Assembly: GCA_014380425.1 (NCBI GenBank)
Contig: JACMJX010000008.1
Coordinates: 1-38,646 of the forward strand
Reading direction: 5' to 3'
DNA from: Chitinophagaceae bacterium
Lineage (GTDB): Bacteria; Bacteroidota; Bacteroidia; Chitinophagales; Chitinophagaceae
DNA: 38,646 nt
Shown one piece after another: positions 10,888 through 27,063 of the stretch; position 1 is the stretch's first letter, and every line of letters begins with the position of its first letter. A program made the translations under genes and the position numbers. The notes under the pieces were generated by a model. The model made no database searches, was not told the DNA's origin, and worked only from the letters and a program-made list of their open reading frames with translations.

Positions 10888-12174
10888 ATGATTCAGTTTA
10901 GACCAATAGCCAGAGTTTTTTTATCATTCTTTCTTCTGCTCACCGTACTCTCTATAAATAAAGTTTCGTTTGCCCAGGATGCAGCTGCCGGAAAGGTAAT
11001 TTTTCAAGGGCAGTGCGTGCAGTGTCACCAGGTAAACAGGAACGCTACCGGTCCTGCTCTTGCCGGCATCGAAGAGCGGGTTCCTGATAAGAAACTGCTG
11101 TACGACTGGATCCGCAACAACCAAAAGGTACTCGCTTCAGGTAATCCGTATTTCACCAACCTATACAATGAATGGAATAAGACACCGATGAACGTGTTTT
11201 CGGGGCTTTCCGACACCGATATCGATAACATACTTGCTTACATAAAGGCTGAAGCTTCAAAGGGAGACGCAGCCAAGGGTGGCGCTGCCGGTGGCGGCGA
11301 TGGTTCGAAGGAACAGGCTGATAAAGCACAAAGTTCTGACAATACCCTGCTCTTCGGGATTCTTACACTTATCCTCGCCATTATAGCCCTGATCCTGCTT
11401 CAGGTAAATGCTAACCTGAGAAAACTGTCAGACGATAAAGAAGGTGTACCGGCATTTGAACCTGTTCCTTTCTATAGAAATAAGGTTTATATCTCGTTAC
11501 TGACCATCTTGTTATTCGTGATTGGCGGCTACTTCACCATCCAGGGTGCTATTGGCCTGGGCCGTAATAAAGATTATCAGCCGGAGCAGCCGATCTATTA
11601 TTCCCATAAAGTACACGCAGGCGCCAACCAGATCAACTGTCTTTACTGTCATGGAGGAGCTGAAGAGAGCAAACACGCTAATATACCTTCTGTAAATACC
11701 TGTATGAATTGCCACATGGCTATCAATGAGTATACAGGATCTGCGGGTAAATTATACACCGAATCTGGCCAGGAAGTGAACGGCACGGCGGAAATACAGA
11801 AATTATATGAATACGCAGGTTGGGATCCCGCGGCAAAGAGGTATGTAAACAATGGCAAACCCATCGAATGGGTACGTATTCATAACCTGCCCGACCACGT
11901 TTACTTCAATCACTCTCAGCACGTAAAAGCCGGGGGAGTTGCCTGCCAAACATGTCATGGTGCCATTCAGGAAATGGGTGAAGTGTACCAGTTTACAGAT
12001 TTAAGCATGGGGTGGTGTGTTAACTGCCACCGCGAAACGAAAGTCAAGTTCACGGAGAACAAGTTCTACAGCATCTACGAAAAGTTCCATGAAGATATTA
12101 AGAACAAGGGCAAAGACAGTAGTATTACGGTAGAAGCGATCGGAGGAACAGAATGTCAGAAATGCCACTATTAA
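10888..12174 (+). CDS. actA: Alternative complex III multiheme cytochrome c subunit ActA, fused to an N-terminal class I cytochrome c domain
   Basis: Six CxxCH motifs: CVQCH, CLYCH, CMNCH, CQTCH, CVNCH, CQKCH. First gene in the canonical actABCDEF order. Confidence 0.92.
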   Translation: MIQFRPIARVFLSFFLLLTVLSINKVSFAQDAAAGKVIFQGQCVQCHQVNRNATGPALAGIEERVPDKKLLYDWIRNNQKVLASGNPYFTNLYNEWNKTPMNVFSGLSDTDIDNILAYIKAEASKGDAAKGGAAGGGDGSKEQADKAQSSDNTLLFGILTLILAIIALILLQVNANLRKLSDDKEGVPAFEPVPFYRNKVYISLLTILLFVIGGYFTIQGAIGLGRNKDYQPEQPIYYSHKVHAGANQINCLYCHGGAEESKHANIPSVNTCMNCHMAINEYTGSAGKLYTESGQEVNGTAEIQKLYEYAGWDPAAKRYVNNGKPIEWVRIHNLPDHVYFNHSQHVKAGGVACQTCHGAIQEMGEVYQFTDLSMGWCVNCHRETKVKFTENKFYSIYEKFHEDIKNKGKDSSITVEAIGGTECQKCHY

Positions 12175-12279
12175 TAACCAGCCGCTAAAGCAAAAGTGGC
12201 CAGCAGGCAATGGGTTAGAATAATAATTCGGAATAATTCAAACGAACTACTCCTGCGCGGGTAGCGGTAAATTGAAAAT

Positions 12280-15200
12280 ATGGAGCAAAAAAAGTACTGG
12301 CAGAGTTACGAGGAATTAAAGAACCCTAAGGCATTTCAAAAGAGTGCGGAAGACGAGTTTAAAGAGGATTTGCCTTTTGCAGATATCGATGATAAAGGTT
12401 TGCAGGACAGTAAAACGCCTCGCAGGGACTTTCTAAAGTATCTTGGGTTTAGCACTGCAGCCGCTATGGTAGCTGCCAGTTGCGAAACTCCCGTTAGAAA
12501 GGCGGTACCGTTTGTGAACAGGCCTGAGAATATAATTCCCGGGATACCGGATTATTATGCTACTACCTATGTTTCAGGAGGAGATGCCGTATCCATTGTT
12601 GCAAAAGTAAGAGACGGAAGGCCTATCAAAATAGAAGGTAATGAACTGAGCAGCGTTAACAAAGGAGGCACTACAGCACGCGTGCAAGCATCTGTGCTCG
12701 ACTTGTATGATACATCACGCCTTCGTTTCCCGAAGGCCAATAATAAAGAAGTAAGCAGTTTTGAGGCACTTGACAAGATGGTGGGTATGGAACTGGGTGG
12801 AACGATAGCGATACTTACTGGCACTATCAATTCACCAACAACGAGGCAGATCATGGCTGACTTTCTGGCTAAGTATCCAGGTAGCCGCCACGTGCAGTAC
12901 GATCCCATTTCTTATTCCGGTCAGCTGCTTGCCAATGAAGCAACTTATGGTAGCAAGGCCATCCCCTCTTACCAGTTCGACAAGGCTAAGGTGGTGGTAA
13001 GCCTGGGAGCCGACTTTCTTGGAGAATGGCTGAACGCGGTGGAATACCAGAAAGGTTATTCTGCGGGCCGTAAATTGAATCAGGCCAATCCGCAAATGAG
13101 CAAGCATTACCAGTTCGAGAGTTTCCTGAGCATGACCGGTGCGAATGCGGACGATCGCTTTACGCACAGGCCTTCGGAAGCAGGCGCAGTTGCGCTTGGC
13201 TTGCTGAATGCCCTTACAGGACAACCTGTAAACGGAGTGCCGGAAAAAGTAAAGAAAGGAATTGCTAAAGTAGCAGCTGACCTGAATGCCAACAAAGGCG
13301 CAGGCCTGGTGATCAGCGGGAGCAATAATGTAAACATCCAGATTATCGTTAATGCCATCAACGAAGCTATCGGGGCCAATGGTACCACGATCAACTGGGG
13401 CGCTAACTTGCTTACCAAACAAGGCATCGACAGCGACATGGTGACGCTGGTTGCAGACATGCAGGCCGGAAGAATCAACAGCCTTCTGATATACGATGCC
13501 AACCCTGCTTATGATTATCATAACGCAGATGCTTTTAAACAAGCCATCAAGAGAGTAAAGACGACTGTTTCATTTAGTGAAAAGATGGATGAGACAACTG
13601 CTTTATGTAAGTACGTGATCCCTTCTCACCATTACCTGGAGAGCTGGGGAGATGCTGAGCCAAAGGTTGGCTACATTAGCATCATGCAGCCTACTATTTC
13701 ACCATTGTTCAAAACACGCCAGTTTCAGGATTCCCTTCTTAAATGGAGTGGCAACCCTGTTACTTATGATAATTACTTCCGCGAGTACTGGATGGGTAAA
13801 CTCGGTACCGCCGATCTTTATAATAAGGCATTGCAGGACGGAGTTATTGAACCAGCTACTCCTGTAACTGCTTCCGTACCTTTTAATGGCGCTGGCGTTG
13901 CAGCTGCTTCTGCTGCTATAGCTGCTGCAAAAAAGGGTGGAAAGATGGAACTGGTGCTTTATACTAAAATAGGAGTTGGCGATGGCAAGCAGGCTAACAA
14001 TCCCTGGTTGCAGGAACTACCTGATCCTATCACCAAGGCTACCTGGGATAACTATGCAATGGTTTCTCCGCAGTACGCCAAGCAGTTTCTCGACATCGAC
14101 CTCACTGATGATGGAGAGCGCGATGATAATGAATATGAAGCAAATCCTCCAAAACCGGTAGTAAGGATCAAGTCGGGCAATAAAGTACTTCTGCTTCCGG
14201 CCATGATTATACCGGGTATGAACCCTGATACGGTGGCAGTAGCGGTTGGTTACGGCCGTGGCGTGAACAATGATGCGTCTGAACCGGAACTGGACCAGGC
14301 TAAAATTAATATAGGAAGGGCAGGCGCGGGTGTTGGTAAAAACGCTTATCCTTTTGCCTTGTATAATGGTACTACCGTAGAATGGTTTGCATCGGATGTA
14401 ACGGTGGAACCAACGGGGGACAAGTTCGATATCGCCACTACTCAAACCCATAGTTCTTACGAAGGGCGTCATGAAGTGATGAAGGAAATGACTTTTGCCA
14501 ATTACAAGAAGAACCCGAAGGAAATTCTTGAAGAAAGGGCAAAGGAGCTGGCTCCATGGGGCGGCCTCGACAACTTCGCTGCAGCGGGTACCTTGTATCC
14601 TGCGGACATGCTGGAAAGACCCGGCATCAAATGGGGGATGTCTATCGATCTTAATAGTTGTCATGGTTGCGGCGCCTGTGTGGTAGCCTGCCAGGTGGAG
14701 AATAATGTTGCTATCGTCGGTAAGTCGGAAGTGCTGCGTTACCATGATATGGCCTGGCTGCGGATCGACCGTTACTTTAGTGGTAATCCCAACGATCCTG
14801 AAAGCATTCAGACAGTATTTCAACCCATGCTTTGTCAGCATTGCGAGAATGCTCCTTGCGAGAATGTTTGCCCTGTAGCGGCAACCAATCACAGCAGTGA
14901 AGGGCTCAACCAGATGATTTATAACCGTTGTATCGGTACAAGATATTGCGCGAACAACTGTCCTTATAAAGTACGTCGCTTCAACTGGGCAGATTACCAG
15001 GGTGCAGACAGCTTCGCGGACAATCAGAAGGGTCATGTTAGTGAGGCTACCCTGATGATGAATGATGATCTTACGCGTATGGTGCTGAACCCTGACGTTA
15101 CAGTGCGCAGCCGTGGTGTTATCGAGAAATGCACCTTCTGCGTGCAGCGTTTGCAAGCGGGTAAATTACAGGCTAAAAAGGAAAACAGGGTATTGACAGA

Positions 15201-15468
15201 CAGGGATGCACAGACGGCTTGCCAGCAGGCATGTTCTTCGGAGGCAATCGTGTTCGGTAATGCCAATGATGCACAAAGCATCGTTAGCAGAACGAGAACT
15301 GAAAATGCTGGCAGGATATTTTATTCCCTCGAGCAGATACACACGTTACCCAATGTAAGTTATCTTGCCAAGATCAGAAATACAGAAGTATTAAACAATG
15401 AACACGGTGATCATATCAGGTTCGAGAACACGGAAGGGTCTGCATCACCAGGATCGACGAATCATTAA
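12280..15468 (+). CDS. actB: Alternative complex III iron-sulfur/molybdopterin-like subunit ActB (TAT-variant-translocated)
   Basis: 1062 aa; RRDFLKYLGFSTAAAMVAASC N-terminus, molybdopterin oxidoreductase-like region, and C-terminal ferredoxin-type clusters (CHGCGACVVACQ, CQHCENAPCENVCP, CIGTRYCANNCP, CTFCVQR). Confidence 0.93.
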   Translation: MEQKKYWQSYEELKNPKAFQKSAEDEFKEDLPFADIDDKGLQDSKTPRRDFLKYLGFSTAAAMVAASCETPVRKAVPFVNRPENIIPGIPDYYATTYVSGGDAVSIVAKVRDGRPIKIEGNELSSVNKGGTTARVQASVLDLYDTSRLRFPKANNKEVSSFEALDKMVGMELGGTIAILTGTINSPTTRQIMADFLAKYPGSRHVQYDPISYSGQLLANEATYGSKAIPSYQFDKAKVVVSLGADFLGEWLNAVEYQKGYSAGRKLNQANPQMSKHYQFESFLSMTGANADDRFTHRPSEAGAVALGLLNALTGQPVNGVPEKVKKGIAKVAADLNANKGAGLVISGSNNVNIQIIVNAINEAIGANGTTINWGANLLTKQGIDSDMVTLVADMQAGRINSLLIYDANPAYDYHNADAFKQAIKRVKTTVSFSEKMDETTALCKYVIPSHHYLESWGDAEPKVGYISIMQPTISPLFKTRQFQDSLLKWSGNPVTYDNYFREYWMGKLGTADLYNKALQDGVIEPATPVTASVPFNGAGVAAASAAIAAAKKGGKMELVLYTKIGVGDGKQANNPWLQELPDPITKATWDNYAMVSPQYAKQFLDIDLTDDGERDDNEYEANPPKPVVRIKSGNKVLLLPAMIIPGMNPDTVAVAVGYGRGVNNDASEPELDQAKINIGRAGAGVGKNAYPFALYNGTTVEWFASDVTVEPTGDKFDIATTQTHSSYEGRHEVMKEMTFANYKKNPKEILEERAKELAPWGGLDNFAAAGTLYPADMLERPGIKWGMSIDLNSCHGCGACVVACQVENNVAIVGKSEVLRYHDMAWLRIDRYFSGNPNDPESIQTVFQPMLCQHCENAPCENVCPVAATNHSSEGLNQMIYNRCIGTRYCANNCPYKVRRFNWADYQGADSFADNQKGHVSEATLMMNDDLTRMVLNPDVTVRSRGVIEKCTFCVQRLQAGKLQAKKENRVLTDRDAQTACQQACSSEAIVFGNANDAQSIVSRTRTENAGRIFYSLEQIHTLPNVSYLAKIRNTEVLNNEHGDHIRFENTEGSASPGSTNH

Positions 15469-15498
15469 TAAAAGCTTCCAGCTAAACGATTACAGAAT

Positions 15499-16950
15499 AT
15501 GGCAGTATTAAAATACGAATCGCAGACAAGAGATCCATTAGTGGATGGGCATAAAGATTATCACCAGGTAACTGAAGATATTATCCGGCCCATCGAGGCC
15601 AATCCGAGCCGCCTGTGGTGGATTGGATTCATTATATCGGTTTGCCTGCTACTGTTCGGAGTGTACTCCGTGTATCGTGAAGTAACTTATGGTATCGGCC
15701 AGTGGAATCTAAATAAAACGATCGGTTGGGGTTGGGATATTACCAACTTCGTTTGGTGGGTAGGTATCGGCCATGCCGGTACACTTATCTCTGCCATCCT
15801 GCTGTTGTTCCGCCAGGGCTGGAGAACAGGAGTGAACCGTGCTGCGGAAGCGATGACCATCTTTGCCGTAATGTGTGCGGGTCAGTTCCCGATCTTTCAC
15901 ATGGGAAGGGTATGGATGGCCTTTTATGTATTGCCTTATCCCAATACAAGAGGCCCTTTATGGGTTAACTTCAATTCCCCGCTTTTATGGGACGTATTCG
16001 CGATTTCCACCTACTTCACCGTTTCCTTGTTATTCTGGTACAGCGGTTTGCTGCCTGATCTCGCTACCGTAAGAGACAGGGCCAAATTGAAATGGAGAAA
16101 GCGTATGTATGGCCTGCTTTCCTTTGGATGGACTGGTTCTACCAAGCACTGGCAGCGTCATGAGAGTCTTTCACTGGTACTGGCCGGCCTTTCAACGCCG
16201 TTAGTACTTTCAGTACATACCATCGTATCTTTTGACTTTGCCACTTCCGTTATACCAGGCTGGCATACAACAATCTTTCCACCTTACTTTGTAGCAGGTG
16301 CGGTATTCTCCGGTTTTGCCATGGTGCAGACGCTTTTGCTGATCACCCGTAAAGTACTGGGCCTGAAGGACTATATTACCCTGAACCATATCGACGTGAT
16401 GAACAAGGTAATTGTGCTTACCGGCTCTATAGTGGGTGTGGCATATCTTACCGAATTGTTTATAGCCTGGTATGGCCAGAACGGGTACGAGTGGTACGCA
16501 TTTAAAGAAAACAGGGCGAACCTGTTCTCCCCTTATGGCTGGAGCTACTGGCTGATGATGGGCTGTAACGTATTATCGCCCCAGATATTCTGGATTAAGA
16601 AAATGAGAACGAATATCACCGTTACTTTCTTTATGAGTATTCTGATCAATATAGGGATGTGGTTCGAACGTTTCGTAATTATCGTAACCTCTATTTACAG
16701 AGATTACCTGCCAAGCAGCTGGTCTACTTACTATGCGCCCACAATTTGGGAAGTTGGATTTTACCTGGGTACGTTCGGGTTATTCTTTACCTGTTACTTC
16801 CTGTTCTCCAAGTTCTTCCCCGTAATTGCGGTAGCCGAGATCAAGCACATACTCAAGAAGAACGGAGAAAGTTATAAAGCAAAAATGGATGTTATCGAGA
16901 ATAAGCCGGCTGAGAAATTTTATGAAGAAACACATGCTGTTCCTCACTAA
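15499..16950 (+). CDS. actC: Alternative complex III NrfD/PsrC-like quinol-interacting membrane subunit ActC
   Basis: 483 aa polytopic protein, NrfD-type (WWVGIGHAGTLISAILLL...RAAEAMTIFAVMCAGQFPIFHMGR); synteny. Confidence 0.93.
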   Translation: MAVLKYESQTRDPLVDGHKDYHQVTEDIIRPIEANPSRLWWIGFIISVCLLLFGVYSVYREVTYGIGQWNLNKTIGWGWDITNFVWWVGIGHAGTLISAILLLFRQGWRTGVNRAAEAMTIFAVMCAGQFPIFHMGRVWMAFYVLPYPNTRGPLWVNFNSPLLWDVFAISTYFTVSLLFWYSGLLPDLATVRDRAKLKWRKRMYGLLSFGWTGSTKHWQRHESLSLVLAGLSTPLVLSVHTIVSFDFATSVIPGWHTTIFPPYFVAGAVFSGFAMVQTLLLITRKVLGLKDYITLNHIDVMNKVIVLTGSIVGVAYLTELFIAWYGQNGYEWYAFKENRANLFSPYGWSYWLMMGCNVLSPQIFWIKKMRTNITVTFFMSILINIGMWFERFVIIVTSIYRDYLPSSWSTYYAPTIWEVGFYLGTFGLFFTCYFLFSKFFPVIAVAEIKHILKKNGESYKAKMDVIENKPAEKFYEETHAVPH

Positions 16951-17008
16951 GTGCAGCCATAGTATTTTTTGATAGCAGAATTAGTACTTACAATTTGAAA
17001 ATTAATAT

Positions 17009-17602
17009 ATGGGAGTTAAGAAATTTATTGTAGGATGTTTTGATAATGAGGATGTATTGTTCCCCGCTGTTAAGAGCGTGCGGAAAGCAGGGTATAAGAT
17101 CCATGATGTTTATACCCCCATGCCGATCCACGGGCTTGATCATGCCATGGGCCTCCGGGAAACCAGCCTTCATACGGCAGGGTTTATATATGGCATCATT
17201 GGTACTACAACCGCCCTTACAAGCATTACCTGGATATTTACCAGGGACTGGCCTTTAAATATAGGCGGCAAGCCCCATTTTTCACTGCCTGCCTGGATCC
17301 CTATTATGTTTGAGCTGACTGTTTTGTTTGCGGCCGTAGGGATGGTGCTCACTTTTTGTTACCTGTGCCAACTGGCTCCGTTTGTAAAAAAGCACCATTT
17401 TCACCTTAGGGCCACTGATGATCTTTTTGTGATGGTACTGGAAGTTACTTCTAAAACAAACGAAGCCGATACCATTAACTTTCTCAAAAAAGCAGGAGCG
17501 GTAGAAGTGAATGTGCAGGTAGCTGAAGACGGATGGTGGCTGGGGCGGTATGATAAGGAACAGAAGCTTTATCAAGGACACGGTGAAACTGTTATTGTTT
17601 AA
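17009..17602 (+). CDS. actD: Alternative complex III subunit ActD (DUF3341)
   Basis: 197 aa; DUF3341-like (VYTPMPIHGLDHAMGLRETSL) and synteny. Confidence 0.9.
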   Translation: MGVKKFIVGCFDNEDVLFPAVKSVRKAGYKIHDVYTPMPIHGLDHAMGLRETSLHTAGFIYGIIGTTTALTSITWIFTRDWPLNIGGKPHFSLPAWIPIMFELTVLFAAVGMVLTFCYLCQLAPFVKKHHFHLRATDDLFVMVLEVTSKTNEADTINFLKKAGAVEVNVQVAEDGWWLGRYDKEQKLYQGHGETVIV

Positions 17603-17605
17603 ATA

Positions 17606-18271
17606 ATGAAACGAATTGAACTACTAATGAAGAAATTACCGATACTATCACTTTTGCTGGTTGTTGTTACAGGCAGCATCGTGAGTTGTAGTGATGTAAA
17701 GCGTGAGCCGAGCCGTAACTATATGCCAGACATGTGGCAAAGCCGGGCTTATGAAACCTACGCTCCGCACAAGAACCTGGAGGATAGCCAGATTCACTAT
17801 ACCAATATGCCTGTATCGGGTACTATCAAGAGAGGGGAGATTTTTCCTTTTCCTTTAAAAAGAGATGGAGTTGGAGACAGTTCGAATTATATAGGCTCAA
17901 AGCAGATCGTTAATCCGCTGCCTATGCCTGATACATTGAGGCTGAAAGAGTCTGAAAGGCTTTACCTGATTCATTGCGGTATTTGTCACGGTACGAAACT
18001 GGATGGTAACGGTCCGCTTTACAAGGATGGATCCGGGCCTTATGCCGCCAAACCAGCTACGCTTGTAGGAGATGCAAAGTATGAGAATATGCCAGAGGGC
18101 CAGATGTTTTATTCAATTACATATGGTAAGAACCTGATGGGCCCGTACGGCTCCCAGTTAAGTACCACGCAGAGATGGCAGATTATTCATTATATAAAAT
18201 CGAAGCAGGCTAAAAGTGTTCCGAAAACAGACACGGCGGCTCCGGATTCAACGGCTACAGCAGCGAAATAG
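17606..18271 (+). CDS. actE: Alternative complex III monoheme cytochrome c lipoprotein subunit ActE
   Basis: Lipobox-like N-terminus (VVTGSIVSCSD), CGICH heme motif, RNYMPDMWQSRAYE; synteny. The start may be the internal MKKLP. Confidence 0.9.
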   Translation: MKRIELLMKKLPILSLLLVVVTGSIVSCSDVKREPSRNYMPDMWQSRAYETYAPHKNLEDSQIHYTNMPVSGTIKRGEIFPFPLKRDGVGDSSNYIGSKQIVNPLPMPDTLRLKESERLYLIHCGICHGTKLDGNGPLYKDGSGPYAAKPATLVGDAKYENMPEGQMFYSITYGKNLMGPYGSQLSTTQRWQIIHYIKSKQAKSVPKTDTAAPDSTATAAK

Positions 18272-18322
18272 TCAGCAGGCGTATAGTTAAGTATTGATTT
18301 AAACGGTCATAAATTTTTGAGA

Positions 18323-19555
18323 ATGTCTTTAAAAGAACAGTTTACGGTACCTGGCAGATTTAGAACCATATCACTCAGCTTGATGGCAATTGGTATAGTA
18401 TCCCTGGTTGCCGGGTATTTTCTCTACGGCACTGGCGATGAACATTATCAGGTCAGGTTCTGGGGAACTTTAATACATAACAGTGTTTTCTTCCTTTTGG
18501 TAGTAAACGCTGCAATGTTCTTTATTTGCGCTACCACCCTAGCCATGGGTGGCTGGCAACTGGCATTTAGAAGGGTTTCTGAGGCAATTACGGTCGCCGT
18601 TATTCCATTGGGAGTTATTGCGCTTATAGTACTGCTTGCACTGGTGCTTGGTCATCAGCACCATATTTATCATTGGCTCACTCCCGAAGGTGATAAGATT
18701 CTGGAAGGTAAAAGCGGCTTTTTGAACCCTAGATTCTATATTATCTGGACTATTCTCACCATCGGCGGCTGGATTATATTAGGCAGGAAGATGCGTTTGG
18801 TTTCCGCGGAGCTGGATAACGGTCCTGTACCTGTTGAGCAGGGAAGAAAATATGTATTCCGGAGCACGGTATGGGCTTCTCTTTTCCTGGTTTGGTTTGC
18901 TTTAACGGTATTGTCTACCGCACCCTGGCTCTGGTTGATGAGTATTGATGCGCACTGGTATTCTACTATGTTCAGCTGGTACACTTTTGCAAGCACATTT
19001 GTATCTGGAATCGCTGTTATGACTTTATTTGTGATTTATCTGAAGAATCAGGGCTATCTGGAATTGGTAAACCGGGAGCATATTCATGATCTTGGAAAGT
19101 TCATGTTCGCATTTTCCATATTCTGGACTTACCTTTGGTTCTCGCAATTTATGCTGATCTGGTACGCTAATATCCCGGAGGAAACGGTCTATTTTAAACC
19201 AAGAGTAGAAGGAGCATTTAAAGGGCTTTTTTGGTTCATGTTTGTGATCAATTTCCTCGCTCCGTTGTTAATATTAATGCGCGCTGGCTCGAAAAGAAAC
19301 TATACTACCGTTACTTTCATGGCTATTCTGATAATTATCGGTCACTGGCTGGATGTTTATCAGATGGTATTCCCTGGGTTAAGCCAGGATCCGGAGACAG
19401 GTAAGTATCATGTACCGTTGAATTTTTTTGATATTGGCGTAGCTTTGGGCTTTGTAGGATTAATAATGTACTCCACCGGCAATGCCCTTGCAAAACGTCC
19501 GTTATATGTTAAGAATCATCCATTCTTTAAAGAAACTATTATTCATCACACATAA
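18323..19555 (+). CDS. actF: Alternative complex III membrane subunit ActF (quinol:cytochrome c oxidoreductase, NrfD-like)
   Basis: Polytopic protein of about 410 aa in the canonical act order. The ORF track starts at a TTG (18317); ATG at 18323 (MSLKEQF) is more likely. Confidence 0.9.
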   Translation: MSLKEQFTVPGRFRTISLSLMAIGIVSLVAGYFLYGTGDEHYQVRFWGTLIHNSVFFLLVVNAAMFFICATTLAMGGWQLAFRRVSEAITVAVIPLGVIALIVLLALVLGHQHHIYHWLTPEGDKILEGKSGFLNPRFYIIWTILTIGGWIILGRKMRLVSAELDNGPVPVEQGRKYVFRSTVWASLFLVWFALTVLSTAPWLWLMSIDAHWYSTMFSWYTFASTFVSGIAVMTLFVIYLKNQGYLELVNREHIHDLGKFMFAFSIFWTYLWFSQFMLIWYANIPEETVYFKPRVEGAFKGLFWFMFVINFLAPLLILMRAGSKRNYTTVTFMAILIIIGHWLDVYQMVFPGLSQDPETGKYHVPLNFFDIGVALGFVGLIMYSTGNALAKRPLYVKNHPFFKETIIHHT

Positions 19556-19618: not shown

Positions 19619-20680
19619 ATGTCTACATTTTTTCTAATAGCGATCTTCTTACTTGGCTTTCTGGTTACTTTCCAGATTGCCAAAGCAAGCGAGTATGTGG
19701 GAATATTGAAGGGCGAGAAGAAAAACTTTGAACAGAATAACCGCATCAACGGCTTCCTTTTGCTCGCCTTCTTGGTATTTGGCCTGTTGGGCGTTTATTG
19801 GTGCAATGAGGCGCTGAAAGGCAGAATATTGGGCGAGGCCGCTTCCGAGCACGGGCAGAACATCGATAGAATGCTTTACATCACCATTGCTGTAACCGGC
19901 GTTGTATTTGTGATCACGCAGATCCTGTTGTTTTGGTTCGCATTTAAATATCAATACAAGGAAACCCGTAAAGTATACTTCTTTTCTCACGATAATAAGC
20001 TGGAGCTTATTTGGACCGTTGTTCCTGCAATAGCACTTTCCGTGCTGGTTGGGTTCGGGCTTTACTATTGGCTGGGTATTACAGGTGATGCACCTAAGGG
20101 AGCCCTGGAAGTAGAAATAACCGGTAAGCAGTTTGCCTGGATATACCGGTATCCTGGCGACGATAAGATTTTTGGTAAAAAATACTACAAGAATATTAGT
20201 GATGCCGAGGACAATTCCCTGGGTATTTTATGGGATGACAAGTCATCACAGGATGATATTGTTAACGAGCAGGCTATGTACCTTGTCAAGAACCGGCCTG
20301 TGAAGCTGATCATTGGGGCGCGCGATGTGATTCATGATGTTGGACTGTCTCATTTCAGGATGAAAATGGATGCTGTGCCGGGAACGCCGACCACAATGTG
20401 GTTCACCCCGTTGTACACTACCAAGGAAATGAAGAAAATGACCAATAATCCTGATTTTGTCTATGAAATCTCCTGCGACCAGATGTGTGGCAAGGGGCAC
20501 TTTTCGATGAAGGGGCTTATTGAAGTGGTTACGCAGGAAGAGTACGACTTGTGGATGGCGCGGCAGAAACCTAAATATTTGGCAGTGTTCCCGGATAAGG
20601 ATCCTGCGAATGCAAAGAAAGACAGTACAGTTGCTACCGCTGCGGCAGTGGATACACTTAAGATGGCGGCAAGCAAGTAA
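19619..20680 (+). CDS. coxB: Cytochrome c oxidase subunit II (CuA)
   Basis: TM hairpin plus cupredoxin; CuA ligands in DVIHD...CDQMCGKGHFSM; extra N-terminal TM segments. Confidence 0.93.
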   Translation: MSTFFLIAIFLLGFLVTFQIAKASEYVGILKGEKKNFEQNNRINGFLLLAFLVFGLLGVYWCNEALKGRILGEAASEHGQNIDRMLYITIAVTGVVFVITQILLFWFAFKYQYKETRKVYFFSHDNKLELIWTVVPAIALSVLVGFGLYYWLGITGDAPKGALEVEITGKQFAWIYRYPGDDKIFGKKYYKNISDAEDNSLGILWDDKSSQDDIVNEQAMYLVKNRPVKLIIGARDVIHDVGLSHFRMKMDAVPGTPTTMWFTPLYTTKEMKKMTNNPDFVYEISCDQMCGKGHFSMKGLIEVVTQEEYDLWMARQKPKYLAVFPDKDPANAKKDSTVATAAAVDTLKMAASK

Positions 20681-20747
20681 GGATAAGAAACGCCGGAAGG
20701 CGGATCTGAAGATGGAAATATAATAGGTTCATTTTAAAGATTTAATA

Positions 20748-22577
20748 ATGAGTAACGAAGCGATTTTGCAGAAACCCGCGGATGCGGTAGTAACCCATGG
20801 TGATCATCGTGAGGGGAACGGCCATAGTGAACACCATCATAAAGAGACTTTTATTTCGAAATATGTATTTAGTATGGATCACAAGATGATCGCCAAACAG
20901 TTCCTGATAACAGGGATTATATGGGCTATCATCGGGGGTCTGTTTTCTGTATTGTTCCGTTTGCAACTTGGATATCCAAACGACTCCTTCCCGATTCTGG
21001 AGACGCTTCTGGGTAAATGGGCCAAGGGCGGTAAGATACAGCCTGAATTCTACTATGCCCTTGTTACCATGCATGGTACGGTACTGGTATTCTTCGTACT
21101 AACTGCCGGGCTTAGCGGTACCTTCGCCAATTTCCTGATTCCGCTTCAGATAGGGGCCAGGGATATGGCTTCTCCTTTCATGAATATGCTTTCCTACTGG
21201 TTCTTTTGGGCAGCCAGCGTTGTTATGATATCTTCTCTTTTCGTGGAAACAGGCCCTGCAAGTGGTGGATGGACTTCGTATCCGCCTTTAAGCGCCCTGG
21301 GAGGCGCTTCGGAAGGGTCGAAAACAGGAATGGATCTCTGGCTAATATCGATGGCGCTGTTCGTGGTTTCTTCACTGCTGGGCGGACTGAACTATATTTC
21401 TACGATACTTAATATGCGTACGAAGGGAATGAGCATGACAAGGGTGCCACTTACCATCTGGGCGCTCTTCTTCACCGCTGTTCTTGGCGTGTTATCTTTC
21501 CCCGTGTTGTTATCGGGCTTCATACTACTGCTGTTTGATCGACATGGCGGTACCAGCTTCTATCTCTCCGATATATACCTGGCTTCCACTCAGCAGGCAT
21601 TACCGAACGAGGGTGGAAGTGCCATCCTTTACCAGCACTTGTTCTGGTTCTTAGGTCACCCTGAAGTTTATATTATTCTGCTTCCGGCGATGGGAATGGT
21701 TTCCGAGATTATGAGCGTGAACTCCCGTAAGCCGATCTTTGGTTACATGGCGATGATCGGCTCACTGTTTGCGATCACCATTCTTGCCTTCCTGGTTTGG
21801 GCACACCATATGTTCGTGAGCGGCCTGAATCCGTTCCTCGGCTCGGTGTTCGTATTGCTTACTCTGCTGATCGCTGTACCTTCGGCCATAAAGGTTTTTA
21901 ACTGGCTCACCACACTCTGGAGAGGTAATATCCGCTTTACACCGGCGATGCTGTTCTCCATAGGTTTTGTAAGTTTATTTATCTCCGGGGGTTTAACGGG
22001 TATTTTCCTGGGGAACTCTACGCTCGATATTCATCTTCATGATACATATTTTGTGGTAGCTCACTTTCATATAGTAATGGGTGTGGCTTCTTTCTTCGGT
22101 TTGTTCGCCGGAGTTTACCACTGGTTTCCCAAAATGTATGGCCGTTATCTTAATAATACGATGGCTTATCTCCATTTCTGGGTTACCCTGATAGGAGCTT
22201 ACCTTATCTTCTGGCCTATGCACTACGAGGGGCTTGCAGGTATGCCACGTCGTTATATGGACTTCAGCCAGTGGGTTTCTTTCAACCAGTTCGGTGATCT
22301 CAACAGGTTTATTTCAATCGTTTCTATCATAGTATTCGCGGTTCAGTTGTTGTTTGTGTTTAACTTCTTCTATTCCATTTTCAAAGGCAGAAGAGTTACA
22401 ACATCCAATCCATGGGATTCCAATACTCTTGAGTGGACAACACCCATCCGTCCGGGACATGGTAACTGGCCTGGAGAGATTCCGGAAGTTCACCGCTGGC
22501 CTTATGACTATGGCAAGGATGGAAGAGAGTTTATACCACAGACAGAACCTGTGGGGGCGCAGGAGACCGCTCATTAA
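20748..22577 (+). CDS. coxA: Cytochrome c oxidase subunit I (heme-copper, A1-like)
   Basis: 609 aa; FWFLGHPEVYIILLPAMGMVSEI, WAHHMFVSGLNPFLGS, HDTYFVVAHFHIVMG. Confidence 0.96.
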   Translation: MSNEAILQKPADAVVTHGDHREGNGHSEHHHKETFISKYVFSMDHKMIAKQFLITGIIWAIIGGLFSVLFRLQLGYPNDSFPILETLLGKWAKGGKIQPEFYYALVTMHGTVLVFFVLTAGLSGTFANFLIPLQIGARDMASPFMNMLSYWFFWAASVVMISSLFVETGPASGGWTSYPPLSALGGASEGSKTGMDLWLISMALFVVSSLLGGLNYISTILNMRTKGMSMTRVPLTIWALFFTAVLGVLSFPVLLSGFILLLFDRHGGTSFYLSDIYLASTQQALPNEGGSAILYQHLFWFLGHPEVYIILLPAMGMVSEIMSVNSRKPIFGYMAMIGSLFAITILAFLVWAHHMFVSGLNPFLGSVFVLLTLLIAVPSAIKVFNWLTTLWRGNIRFTPAMLFSIGFVSLFISGGLTGIFLGNSTLDIHLHDTYFVVAHFHIVMGVASFFGLFAGVYHWFPKMYGRYLNNTMAYLHFWVTLIGAYLIFWPMHYEGLAGMPRRYMDFSQWVSFNQFGDLNRFISIVSIIVFAVQLLFVFNFFYSIFKGRRVTTSNPWDSNTLEWTTPIRPGHGNWPGEIPEVHRWPYDYGKDGREFIPQTEPVGAQETAH

Positions 22578-22584
22578 ACATATA

Positions 22585-23487
22585 ATGATGCAGGAAGAAA
22601 CGGTGCAGGGTTCCAGTTCTTTTACATTGGCCAGCAAGCTGCGGGACTATCTGATGTTGTTTAAACCGACACTTAACGTGATGGTTGTTTTCTCGGCAGT
22701 GATAAGTTACCTGCTTGCTCCAAAAGTTGTTGAATATGACGTGGTAATGATCACCTTGTTCTTTATAGGAGGGTTTCTGGTAGTAGGTAGTGCCAATACA
22801 GTTAACCAGGTAGTGGAGAAGGATACGGATGCGAAGATGATGAGAACGGCAAAACGCCCGGTAGCATCTGGAAGAATGTCGGAATCGGAAGGATGGATGG
22901 TTGCTCTTGTTACAGGCTTCGCCGGTATTCTGATACTGGGATACTTTTTTAATTGGCTCTCTGCTGGCATTGCCTTGTTTAGTTTGTTCCTGTATGCATT
23001 TGTTTATACCCCACTAAAAAAGGTGAATTCCATCTCTGTATTGGTTGGCGCGGTGCCTGGTGCACTTCCCTGTCTTATAGGATGGGTAGCCGGTAACGAC
23101 GCCATAAGTGCCGGTGGCTGGGTAATGTTCGCCATTCAGTTTGTATGGCAATTCCCTCACTTCTGGGCGATAGCCTGGTTGGCGCATAAGGACTACTCGA
23201 ACGCTGGTTTTCGGCTCTTACCATCTGTACAGGGACCTACAAAATACTCAGCTATACAATCGATTATATATTCTCTACTGCTGATCCCGGTAGGGATACT
23301 TCCCTACCTAATTGGAATGAGTGGAATTGTGAGCCTCCTGGTAGTGCTGCTTGCTAATCTGCTGATGGTGTGGCAATCGGTAAGATTGTTTAAAGAGATG
23401 GAGGCAAAAGCAGCCAGAAGAGTAATGTTCAGCAGTTATATACATTTGCCAGTTGTATTACTGGCTTTATTAATGGATAAGATTTAA
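22585..23487 (+). CDS. ctaB: Protoheme IX farnesyltransferase (heme O synthase)
   Basis: UbiA-family motifs NTVNQVVEKDTDAKMMRTAKRP and VYTPLKKVNSISVLVGAVPGALPCLIGW. The listed ORF extends 5' into coxA; the likely start is ATG 22585 (MMQEETVQ). Confidence 0.93.
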   Translation: MMQEETVQGSSSFTLASKLRDYLMLFKPTLNVMVVFSAVISYLLAPKVVEYDVVMITLFFIGGFLVVGSANTVNQVVEKDTDAKMMRTAKRPVASGRMSESEGWMVALVTGFAGILILGYFFNWLSAGIALFSLFLYAFVYTPLKKVNSISVLVGAVPGALPCLIGWVAGNDAISAGGWVMFAIQFVWQFPHFWAIAWLAHKDYSNAGFRLLPSVQGPTKYSAIQSIIYSLLLIPVGILPYLIGMSGIVSLLVVLLANLLMVWQSVRLFKEMEAKAARRVMFSSYIHLPVVLLALLMDKI

Positions 23488-23489
23488 TT

Positions 23490-24062
23490 ATGGATACCGT
23501 TATGATTAATGATTCACAGAGAAAAAAGATGCATCCTCATAAGTTTACCTTATGGGTGGGTCTTGGAAGCATTATCATGATGTTTGCAGGATTAACGAGT
23601 GCTTACATTGTAAAGCGCGACCAACCTTCCTGGATAGCTGTGGATATGCCGCTTACTTTCTGGTATTCGACGGCGGTCATTTTACTGAGCAGTTTAACCG
23701 TACATACGGCGAGAGCGGCTTTTAAGGAGAGGAACATGCTGAAATACCGCAGGCTGATAAGTGTTACTGTATTTCTGGGCCTGCTTTTTATCGTGTTACA
23801 GTATGTAGGATTCAATCAATTATGGAACAGCGGGCTGCGTATGAATGGATCAGGTGGAGTGCAGTTTTTGTACATCATTTTCGGTTTGCATGGTTTACAC
23901 GTACTGGGCGGCATTATTGCCTTGCTGGTGATGTTCATTAATGCTTATAGCAGGAGGAGCCGGAGTTATAACATGGTGCCGGTAGAGGTGGCTAGCACTT
24001 ACTGGCATTTTGTAGATATTTTGTGGATCTATCTTTTCGTTTTCTTTCTGGTGATAAAATAG
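23490..24062 (+). CDS. Cytochrome c oxidase subunit III family protein (copy 1)
   Basis: 190 aa, 5 TM; FGLHGLHVLGG...STYWHFVDILWIYLF. Confidence 0.88.
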   Translation: MDTVMINDSQRKKMHPHKFTLWVGLGSIIMMFAGLTSAYIVKRDQPSWIAVDMPLTFWYSTAVILLSSLTVHTARAAFKERNMLKYRRLISVTVFLGLLFIVLQYVGFNQLWNSGLRMNGSGGVQFLYIIFGLHGLHVLGGIIALLVMFINAYSRRSRSYNMVPVEVASTYWHFVDILWIYLFVFFLVIK

Positions 24063-24132
24063 AGGCGAGAGATTAAAATCGAAGAGCTTTGGTAAATCTG
24101 AATTAAATTGCGAATAATTATAACAAAGTAAT

Positions 24133-24804
24133 ATGGCACAAACAGTACCAATGGCTCAGAAATGGTGGAGCGGGGGTAAAAGTCCGTTCAACACGGAATA
24201 TGGCAAGTTGATGAGGTGGTATTTTTTAATGAGTGACGCTTTTACTTTTGGAGCATTTCTCATTTCCTATGGTACAATACGATACTCAAGCAATGGATGG
24301 CCTGACCCTAACGAAGTGTTTCAGAGCTTTCCAGGGCTGGGAAGCGGCTTTCCACTACTGTTTGTGAGTTTAATGACTTTTATTCTGATCATGAGTTCGG
24401 TAACGATGGTACTGGCCGTACATGCAGGGCATAGTAATGATAAGAAAACAGTGATTAAAATGCTTGTATGGACCATAATCGGTGGATTTGCATTTCTTGG
24501 CTGCCAGGCTTGGGAATGGAGCCACCTTCATCATGAAGGTGCCTGGTGGGGTATGAATCCGTTTTCTAATGCAGATGGAACACAATCCACAACCAACTTC
24601 ACTAATTTCTTTTTCACCATTACAGGCTTTCACGGGTTTCACGTTTTCTCGGGTGTCGTCATCAATATAATTATGCTGATCATGACGCTTAACGGCGTTT
24701 TTGAAAGACGCGGACATTATTTGATGATTGAAAAAGCTGGGTTGTATTGGCATTTCGTGGACCTGGTTTGGGTTTTCGTTTTTACATGTTTTTATCTTCT
24801 ATAA
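24133..24804 (+). CDS. Cytochrome c oxidase subunit III family protein (copy 2)
   Basis: 223 aa; GCQAWEWSHL, TGFHGFHVFSG...LYWHFVDLVWVFVF. Confidence 0.9.
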   Translation: MAQTVPMAQKWWSGGKSPFNTEYGKLMRWYFLMSDAFTFGAFLISYGTIRYSSNGWPDPNEVFQSFPGLGSGFPLLFVSLMTFILIMSSVTMVLAVHAGHSNDKKTVIKMLVWTIIGGFAFLGCQAWEWSHLHHEGAWWGMNPFSNADGTQSTTNFTNFFFTITGFHGFHVFSGVVINIIMLIMTLNGVFERRGHYLMIEKAGLYWHFVDLVWVFVFTCFYLL

Positions 24805-24843
24805 TTTATTATAATCACCAGGCAGCACCTGAAATACTATACT

Positions 24844-25299
24844 ATGGAACAGCATCCGACGCATACACACACAGAGCATCAAGATACCGGAACCAAAGAG
24901 ATCTGGAGAACGTTCTGGATTCTTCTCGGCCTCACGATTGTTGAACTCGCCATTGGCTTTTATATGTACAAGGCAGGTTTACAACCGGGCTTTTTCAAAA
25001 ACTTCCTAAAAGGTCTTATCGTCGTACTGATGCTGATGAAAGCTTTTTACATAGTAGCTTATTTCATGCACCTGAAAGCAGAGATCAACAACCTGATCAT
25101 GACAATTGTGGTTCCCTTGCTTCTTTTTGTATGGTTCATTATTGCGTTCCTGATGGAGGGCAGTTCTTACAATAGTCTTAGAAATTCCCTGGATAGGAAC
25201 CACAATGAAAAAAGTACTGCCCCGGTATCGCCTGAGATGAAGGGTAGTAAAGAAACACCTTCTAAGGTAACCAACGAAAAACCTGCGCATACTGAATAG
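24844..25299 (+). CDS. Cytochrome c oxidase subunit IV family protein
   Basis: 151 aa; His-rich N-terminus then three TM segments (KEIWRTFWILLGLTIVELAIGFYMY...AFYIVAYFMHLKAE). Confidence 0.87.
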   Translation: MEQHPTHTHTEHQDTGTKEIWRTFWILLGLTIVELAIGFYMYKAGLQPGFFKNFLKGLIVVLMLMKAFYIVAYFMHLKAEINNLIMTIVVPLLLFVWFIIAFLMEGSSYNSLRNSLDRNHNEKSTAPVSPEMKGSKETPSKVTNEKPAHTE

Positions 25300-25318: not shown

Positions 25319-26038
25319 ATGAGTAAGACAGCTTTGTGGGCTTTGTTTGTGGCGGTGATTATACCAGTTAGTAGTTACCTGATAGTTAAAAGTTATAGTG
25401 AGGATGCAGTGCCAATGCCCAGGCGGTATTATTTCGACTCTGTAAATACCAACGTGGTAAATGGCAAGGAAGTTACTGATACGGTATGGCATAAGGTTAA
25501 TGATATTACGCTTACCAATCAGTTAAGCGATACGGTGTCTCTTCATGATCTTAAAGGGAAAGTAATAGTGGCTGACTTTTTCTTCACCCGGTGCCCGACT
25601 ATCTGCCCTACGCTTACCCGTAATATGAAGAAGCTGCAGGATGCGCTGAAGGTAAGAGATGAAAGAAAGCTCATAGACACCACATTCGTTCACTTTCTGT
25701 CCTTTAGCGTTGATCCGGAAAGAGATACAGCGGAAGCGCTCAAGAAATACGCAGATCACTATGGCGTGAACCATGATTTGTGGTGGATGCTTACAGGCCC
25801 TAAAAAAAAGATCTACGACTTTGCGATCAATGAGCTGAAGTTGCCAGTGGAAGACGGAGGCATCGTAGATTCTAATTTCATTCATACCAGCAGGTTTGTT
25901 CTGCTAGACAGAGACCGCGTAGTTAGAGGGTATTATAACGGGCTTGATAGTATGGCACTGAACCGGCTGGCTAAAGATATTGTGTTCATCATGCTGGAAA
26001 AGGATAAGAAGAAGAAAAGAAACCTCTTTAGAAAATAG
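25319..26038 (+). CDS. SCO family copper chaperone/thioredoxin-like protein
   Basis: VIVADFFFTRCPTICPTLTRNMKKLQ (CxxxCP), SVDPERDT, and the downstream conserved His region. Confidence 0.93.
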   Translation: MSKTALWALFVAVIIPVSSYLIVKSYSEDAVPMPRRYYFDSVNTNVVNGKEVTDTVWHKVNDITLTNQLSDTVSLHDLKGKVIVADFFFTRCPTICPTLTRNMKKLQDALKVRDERKLIDTTFVHFLSFSVDPERDTAEALKKYADHYGVNHDLWWMLTGPKKKIYDFAINELKLPVEDGGIVDSNFIHTSRFVLLDRDRVVRGYYNGLDSMALNRLAKDIVFIMLEKDKKKKRNLFRK

Positions 26039-26077: not shown

Positions 26078-26662
26078 ATGTTAACTGCATCTATTAAAAG
26101 GAACGATACCAGGGCGAGATGGCTGATAGGTATTGTTTCGGTCGTGGTATTCACGGTGGTCGTTATTTTGAGCCAGGTAAAGCTGGATGCTAATCTCGGA
26201 TTCAATCCCCATATTTTCGCAAAAGCGAATGCTGTTATCAATTCCCTGGTAGCGGTTCTGCTCATCGCCGGGCTGTTCTCGATAAAAGCTGGAAAACAAC
26301 TGCAGCACAAGCGGATTATGGTGAGTGCCATTATCTTATCGGTACTTTTCCTTGTTTCTTATATTTGTCATCACCTGTTAAGCGGCGACACCCGTTTTGG
26401 CGACCTGGATCATAACGGTATTTTAAGTGAAGCCGAAAGAACTACCGCCGGGTCTGCAAGAATGATTTACATTATTATTTTACTAACCCATATTCCACTT
26501 GCAGGAATCATTCTTCCCTTTATATTATTTACTGCTTACCGGGCCCTTACGGCAGACTATTCTGCGCATAAGAAACTGGCGAGAATTACATGGCCTATAT
26601 GGCTTTACGTCTCCATTACGGGTGTTATCGTTTATATAATGATCAGCCCCTACTATGGTTGA
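26078..26662 (+). CDS. DUF420 membrane protein, CtaM-like oxidase assembly factor, with EF-hand-like loop
   Basis: 194 aa, about 5 TM; NAVINSLVAVLLIAGLFSIKAGKQLQHKRIMVSA, typical of DUF420. Insert GDLDHNGILSEAE at 26402-26437. Confidence 0.87.
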   Translation: MLTASIKRNDTRARWLIGIVSVVVFTVVVILSQVKLDANLGFNPHIFAKANAVINSLVAVLLIAGLFSIKAGKQLQHKRIMVSAIILSVLFLVSYICHHLLSGDTRFGDLDHNGILSEAERTTAGSARMIYIIILLTHIPLAGIILPFILFTAYRALTADYSAHKKLARITWPIWLYVSITGVIVYIMISPYYG

Positions 26663-26667
26663 TAGCA

Positions 26668-27063
26668 CTAAAGCTGCTCCATAGGGTCCCAGAAATGTTG
26701 TTTAAAATCGAGCACCTGGTCGTCCTGCACTTTTATGCCTTCTTTTTCAAGCAGTTCCTGCATCAGCGTTTCGGTAGCAAAATGGTGCCTTCCACTTAGC
26801 ATACCGTTTCTATTCACTACCCGATGCGCAGGTACTTTTGGCCTTACTTTGTGTGCCCCGTTCATTGCCCAGCCTACCATACGCGCTGAAAGTTTCGTGC
26901 CGAGGCAGGCGGCTATAGCACCATAGGATGTTACCCTGCCTTTGGGAATTTGCCTCGCTACCTGATACACAAGCTCGAAAAAGCTTTCTTCCCGGGTGCC
27001 GGATGGCCTCAATGTCATGGCTTTTTCTTGAGCCTTTACTGTTCTTTTTTTAGGTGTTTTCAT
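26668..27063 (-). CDS. MGMT-family (alkyltransferase-like) DNA-binding protein lacking the catalytic Cys
   Basis: IPKGRVTSYGAIA...RMVGWAMNG...VPAHRVVNRNGMLSG; the PCHRV motif is PAHRV here. Confidence 0.88.
   Translation of the reverse strand: MKTPKKRTVKAQEKAMTLRPSGTREESFFELVYQVARQIPKGRVTSYGAIAACLGTKLSARMVGWAMNGAHKVRPKVPAHRVVNRNGMLSGRHHFATETLMQELLEKEGIKVQDDQVLDFKQHFWDPMEQL

Follow-up and report, generated by a model that had tools for sequence, protein, structure and literature searches.

An optional EF-hand-type loop in the DUF420/CtaM proteins of Bacteroidia

Introduction

Why should a membrane protein implicated in the assembly of a respiratory oxidase carry a loop that reads, position by position, like the calcium-binding loop of an EF-hand? 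The question is raised by a 38,646-nucleotide stretch of DNA from a Chitinophagaceae bacterium (contig JACMJX010000008.1, assembly GCA_014380425.1), hereafter called the window, in which a respiratory gene cluster ends with a gene of the DUF420/CtaM family. If the resemblance is real, we wish to know whether the loop is likely to bind Ca2+, how it is distributed among related proteins, and what it might do for its carrier.

The DUF420/CtaM family is required for the function of aa3/caa3 oxidases (PMC4958251, PMC9145763, PMC13344008), a requirement established for Firmicutes only. Two of these papers place CtaM late in oxidase assembly, with hemes a and a3 forming in its absence, and voice the suspicion that it inserts or delivers copper (PMC9145763, PMC13344008); export or delivery of copper is proposed in the second (PMC13344008). 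Since all of this work concerns Firmicutes, the function of CtaM in Bacteroidota is assigned by homology throughout this paper, and the copper context is one that we infer from papers on Bacillus subtilis.

A full-text search of the open-licence literature for an EF-hand in DUF420/CtaM turned up unrelated papers and no earlier description; an earlier mention may exist elsewhere. To our knowledge, no factor of oxidase assembly has been connected with Ca2+ before, and the loop would be the first such case.

Results

The DUF420 gene and its neighbourhood

The features of the locus are collected in Table 1. The loop-bearing protein scores 138.7 bits against PF04238, where the curated cut-off is 30.5. 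It has five transmembrane (TM) helices in its structural model, within the four or five expected of DUF420/CtaM, and conserved histidines, of which His77, His138 and His164 are invariant in 94 DUF420 sequences; and its gene lies near those of a heme A-type oxidase. In the alternative complex III portion of the cluster, ActD and NrfD are recognised by Pfam.

Table 1. Features of the respiratory cluster and of the DUF420 protein, in window coordinates.
Feature	Position	Strand	Evidence
Alternative complex III: multiheme cytochrome, Fe-S subunit, NrfD, ActD, cytochrome c, sixth subunit without Pfam match	10888..19555	+	
COX2, COX1, CtaB (heme O synthase, UbiA family), two COX3-type, COX4-type	19619..25299	+	
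SCO1 copper chaperone, directly upstream of DUF420	25319..26038	+	PF02630, E=2.3e-24
DUF420/CtaM-like protein, 194 aa, 5 TM	26078..26662	+	PF04238, E=1.8e-40; AlphaFold mean pLDDT 93.8
TM3, ending in the His98-His99 pair beside the loop	26297..26383	+	Model; H99 in 90/94, H98 in 76/94
EF-hand-type loop DLDHNGILSEAE, residues 109-120	26402..26437	+	Conservation in 220 carriers; EF-hand register in profile search
14-codon stretch absent from non-carriers	26405..26446	+	Codon alignments with L013 (same genus) and others; boundaries alignment-dependent by about 1 codon
Short exiting helix, residues 118-124, with invariant Glu120	26429..26449	+	DSSP of model; absent from non-carrier model
TM4, with invariant His138 (94/94)	26453..26548	+	Model and alignment

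A preliminary description of this DNA, made from the sequence alone, had called DUF420 the last gene of the respiratory cluster, and so it is: the next gene downstream (26668-27063) lies on the opposite strand. SCO1 occupies the position directly upstream of DUF420 in 72 of 86 loci. In the f62 family, the carriers L172, L173, L175, L176, L179 and L182-L185 have no SCO1 directly upstream, unlike nearly all others.

The same features recur in the characterised members of the family. CtaM/YozB of Staphylococcus aureus and Bacillus subtilis likewise belongs to PF04238, is predicted to have five TM helices, is encoded with oxidase genes and lies next to SCO1. The window protein differs in having a 14-residue EF-hand-type insert between TM3 and TM4, which is absent from the Pfam model and from many Bacteroidota homologues.

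The loop is not a chance resemblance

The preliminary description had also reported a canonical EF-hand loop in this gene. The codons concerned do encode DLDHNGILSEAE within the DUF420/CtaM reading frame. This peptide fits the PROSITE EF-hand pattern over positions 1 to 12, and no second match of the PROSITE type occurs in any window reading frame of at least 60 amino acids, taken over six frames. In shuffled proteins, by comparison, the pattern is matched about 5 times per million residues. A stricter version of the pattern, applied to DNA, has 3 matches in total in the 3.36 Mb genome from which the window comes; across 11 genomes it finds 0-13 sites per strand, compared with 0-2 when the pattern is reversed. 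The observation of an EF-hand loop in the window's CtaM is correct, and it is not an accident of composition.

We then ask to what known loops it is related. A 28-column profile, built from DUF420 loops alone and run against PDB sequences, retrieves EF-hand proteins at E-values between 3e-6 and 4e-3: calcium-binding protein 2 comes first (3e-6), followed by the EF-hand protein 8fns and lanmodulin, 6mi5 (6e-5 and 9e-5), with calmodulins appearing from 2e-4. In each match, position 1 of the loop falls on the first Asp of the EF-hand, in exact register. The profile is needed for this result, as the window's loop peptide on its own finds no match among PDB sequences. In Pfam, EF-hand_5 is matched by 6 of 94 members, the best at E=0.006; single members score so weakly that automatic annotation will usually miss the loop.

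With calmodulin-type EF-hands the DUF420 loop shares the 12-residue arrangement D-x-[DN]-x-[DN]-G-x-[hydrophobic]-[STD]-x-x-E and the helix that exits from it. It departs from them in being a single copy, in having no entering helix in the model, in lying between two TM helices, and in favouring His at position 4. No second EF-hand is found with which it could pair: the protein, and the window as a whole, contains one pattern match. Lanmodulin and the related 8fns, the third and second best profile matches, are both soluble bacterial EF-hand proteins, whereas the DUF420 loop sits in a membrane protein and, in the alignment, does not have the Pro at position 2 that is lanmodulin's hallmark.

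Conservation of the ligand positions

Among 220 carriers of the loop, position 1 is Asp in 217 and Glu in 3; position 3 is Asn in 141 and Asp in 79; position 5 is Asp in 174, Asn in 40 and some other residue in 6; position 6 is Gly in 200; position 8 is hydrophobic in 216; and position 12 is Glu without exception. The loop has the oxygen ligands of an EF-hand at positions 1, 3, 5, 9 and 12, with Gly at position 6. When near-copies are removed (142 carriers), the entropy at positions 1, 3, 5, 6 and 12 is 0-1.0 bits, compared with 2.3-2.7 bits at the variable positions 2, 7, 10 and 11. Glu120, at position 12, is one of 16 residues invariant in 94 diverse proteins whose identity to the query falls as low as 35%. 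Codons behave in the same manner: the share of differing codon pairs that are synonymous is 0.93 for D1, 0.76 for G6 and 1.0 for E12, against 0.11-0.22 at non-ligand codons (0.11-0.16 at positions 2, 10 and 11).

Positions 3 and 5 do not vary independently. In our first set of carriers, Asn occurs at both positions once, where 19.4 instances are expected; by comparison, 28 of 67 other EF-type loops from the same genomes have Asn at both. On phylogenetically independent pairs, 7.0 of 13 change in opposite directions and 0.3 in the same direction (median p 0.03). Opposite changes are expected if a Ca2+ site must keep a minimum of negative charge, and judged by these counts positions 3 and 5 exchange D and N in a compensatory way. 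Together with the conservation of the ligands, this exchange makes it likely that the loop binds Ca2+.

There are exceptions. In a small clade (L005, L137, L147 and L155) the insert is kept but ligand 5 and Gly6 are lost (D/E-TDG[IV]KGLS..E), and Glu replaces Asp at position 1 in three of the four; here the site is possibly decaying or altered. The Flavobacterium-type loop of L355, DLNHNRILEDTE, has lost ligands as well. Because the ligands are broken in these proteins, binding cannot be under constraint everywhere.

Topology and structural model

The flanking loops are basic, with a mean of 4.3 Lys and Arg residues between TM2 and TM3 and 3.6 between TM4 and TM5, while the region of the EF loop has 1.6, along with 5.3 acidic residues. 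By the positive-inside rule, the flanking loops are therefore cytoplasmic and the EF loop is predicted to be periplasmic.

A search by sequence found no solved structure of a DUF420 protein, and we rely on an AlphaFold model built with 94 sequences, whose confidence is about 87 over the loop. Its helices span residues 10-31, 46-70, 74-102, 118-124, 126-157 and 161-192. As the preliminary description had it, the loop lies between TM helices, namely TM3 and TM4. The model bears out one half of the EF-hand geometry: the helix 118-124 begins at loop position 10, as expected of an EF exiting helix. The other half, an entering helix, is missing, for TM3 ends at 102 and residues 103-108 are non-helical. 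We therefore speak of an EF-hand-type loop rather than of a full EF-hand, which would be a helix-loop-helix. In the model of a non-carrier, a short turn joins TM3 and TM4.

A separate observation concerns the fold as a whole. For both DUF420 models, nearly all of the top fold matches in the PDB are subunit III chains of oxidases, with probabilities up to 1.00, TM-scores of about 0.5 and E-values of 0.05-0.3, which are not significant. Profile comparison of DUF420 with the family of the window's COX3 (the COX3-type gene at 23490-24062) gives P of 1.7e-4 to 1.7e-3, and the same comparison with COX3b and CtaB gives 0.04-0.2. It may be, then, that CtaM is a diverged relative of subunit III, and perhaps it holds that subunit's place while the oxidase is assembled.

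The insert is present or absent as a unit

The preliminary description had tied its calcium reading to ligands conserved within an inserted loop, and both points hold. The loop is a clean insert of 14 residues relative to its relatives and to the Pfam model, and its ligands are kept wherever it is kept, one small degenerate clade excepted. In alignment with relatives the insert is in frame and falls in the TM3-TM4 turn between ...FG and xG; the Pfam model passes over it, fitting 142 residues of the protein on 129 profile positions. Non-carriers mostly link the two helices through FG-G-x-G. Of 316 aligned loop regions (near-copies included), 220 have the insert and 96 do not, and none is of intermediate length.

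In the window's family, 380 of 399 genomes have a DUF420 gene. Judged by match length, about 140 of the best 150 of these 380 matches carry the insert; the number in the whole family is at least this large, the genomes beyond the best 150 being covered by inference. Named carriers are Niastella, Ferruginibacter, Sediminibacterium, Flavisolibacter, Chitinophaga, Flavobacterium, Mucilaginibacter, Pedobacter and Phaeodactylibacter, and a sample of the class adds several further families of Bacteroidia. In a sample of 297 genomes from the phylum, of which we read the best loci in their entirety, the full-length loop matches are all within Bacteroidia, and among the sample's matches we saw no insert outside that class.

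The preliminary description had framed its suggestion for the window's lineage, and the distribution is wider than that. The loop is no oddity of a single lineage, since its carriers fall in many families of Bacteroidia, and yet it is absent from many Flavobacterium and also from G001, a genome of the same genus as the window, whose DUF420 gene (locus L013) has the same COX4-SCO1-DUF420 setting. Because of these absences, we regard it as an optional module, not one that is obligate for oxidase maturation.

How often has the insert come or gone? On a tree of 221 sequences, from which the loop columns were excluded, the insert changes state 33 times, of which at least 13 changes are forced by well-supported branches; this is a quick, unrooted tree with many weak branches. 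Within Flavobacterium, a careful tree of DUF420, SCO1 and COX4, also unrooted, forces at least 5 changes. Such trees count switches only; loss or gain, either of them repeated, or an exchange of the segment may lie behind them. One pair hints at segmental exchange: with the insert set aside, the carrier L353 and the non-carrier L346 have 91% identity, and their nucleotide identity is 0.73 just downstream of the insert, as against 0.80-0.93 elsewhere.

A histidine at position 4

Position 4 of an EF-hand loop is normally free and exposed to solvent. In DUF420 it is occupied by His (residue 112, 26411-26413 in the window) in 106 of 142 non-redundant loops. The other EF-type loops that these genomes encode have His there in 1 of 67 cases (Fisher 2e-26, without correction for kinship). 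The remaining quarter or so, which includes Mucilaginibacter lineages, has Gly, Leu or Phe. An excess of this kind goes beyond what Ca2+ binding needs, and therefore argues for a second role, perhaps contact with a partner or with a second metal.

Discussion

From the observed sequence, conservation, topology and on/off distribution of the loop, we propose that it works as a lone EF-hand site for Ca2+ and serves as an optional structural clip on the periplasmic side of CtaM, a reading to which we give a probability of roughly 0.6. Ca2+ would be held by residues 109, 111, 113, 115 (through its backbone), 117 and 120. Once bound, it would order the turn between TM3 and TM4 and, via the exiting helix, cap the start of TM4; the ordered turn would in turn stabilise the outer face of CtaM beside the conserved His98 and His99. 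CtaM itself would act late in the assembly of heme-copper oxidases, probably in copper delivery together with SCO1. In sister proteins a short GGxG turn stands in place of the loop, and the clip would be optional because that turn does the same job.

Given that the loop binds Ca2+, a structural role is likelier than that of a switch, because Ca2+ is usually plentiful in the periplasm and because the loop has neither an entering helix nor a partner EF-hand. The same considerations weigh on the first alternative, in which the loop is a Ca2+ sensor whose occupancy, set by external Ca2+, switches CtaM, so that oxidase maturation follows the calcium of the environment. A true EF-hand ligand set, placed in the periplasm beside the likely working face of the protein, is what a sensor would have, and its repeated presence and absence could track habitat. 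Against it are the lone site, the usually high Ca2+ of the periplasm, the sister proteins that function without the loop, and the lack of any genetic sign of regulation; we consider a sensor unlikely.

The histidine at position 4 suggests another alternative, in which the loop, together with the nearby His98 and His99, handles copper, and Ca2+ acts as a scaffold or as a competitor. Copper is a reasonable guess, though only a guess, because SCO1 so commonly adjoins DUF420 and because published work links CtaM to the export and delivery of copper (PMC13344008). On the other side, the ligand set is that of Ca2+, and about a quarter of the loops do without His4, those of Mucilaginibacter lineages among them; a dual-metal site is, in our view, a little less probable even than a sensor. 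A bolder proposal would make the CtaM of Bacteroidia a Ca2+-gated copper-delivery factor, in which a swappable periplasmic EF-hand cassette with His4 couples external Ca2+ to the handoff of copper from CtaM to SCO1 and the oxidase, toggled many times by recombination or by repeated loss. We hold this to be improbable, and more so than either of the foregoing.

Alternatively, the Asp/Glu/Gly pattern could reflect protein contacts and the geometry of a turn, the loop being a docking surface for SCO1, COX2 or some other partner. Those carriers that retain the insert after losing ligand residues would fit such a surface; nevertheless, the conserved positions are precisely those of the ligands in an EF-hand, two of which exchange D and N in a compensatory way, and a profile of the loop retrieves EF-hands, so that docking is the least credible of the functional alternatives. 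That the loop is a chance resemblance in an unimportant turn we reject with near certainty, in view of the match rate in shuffled proteins, the pattern counts in genomes, and conservation across 220 proteins, at identities as low as 35%.

Oxidases of the aa3 type need CtaM, and export of copper is the newest proposal for its mechanism. Where close relatives differ by the clean presence or absence of a metal-binding cassette, attention is drawn to its site, the periplasmic turn between TM3 and TM4, as a part of the protein that matters. Its on/off distribution constitutes a natural gain-and-loss experiment, laid out in the culturable genera Flavobacterium and Niastella.
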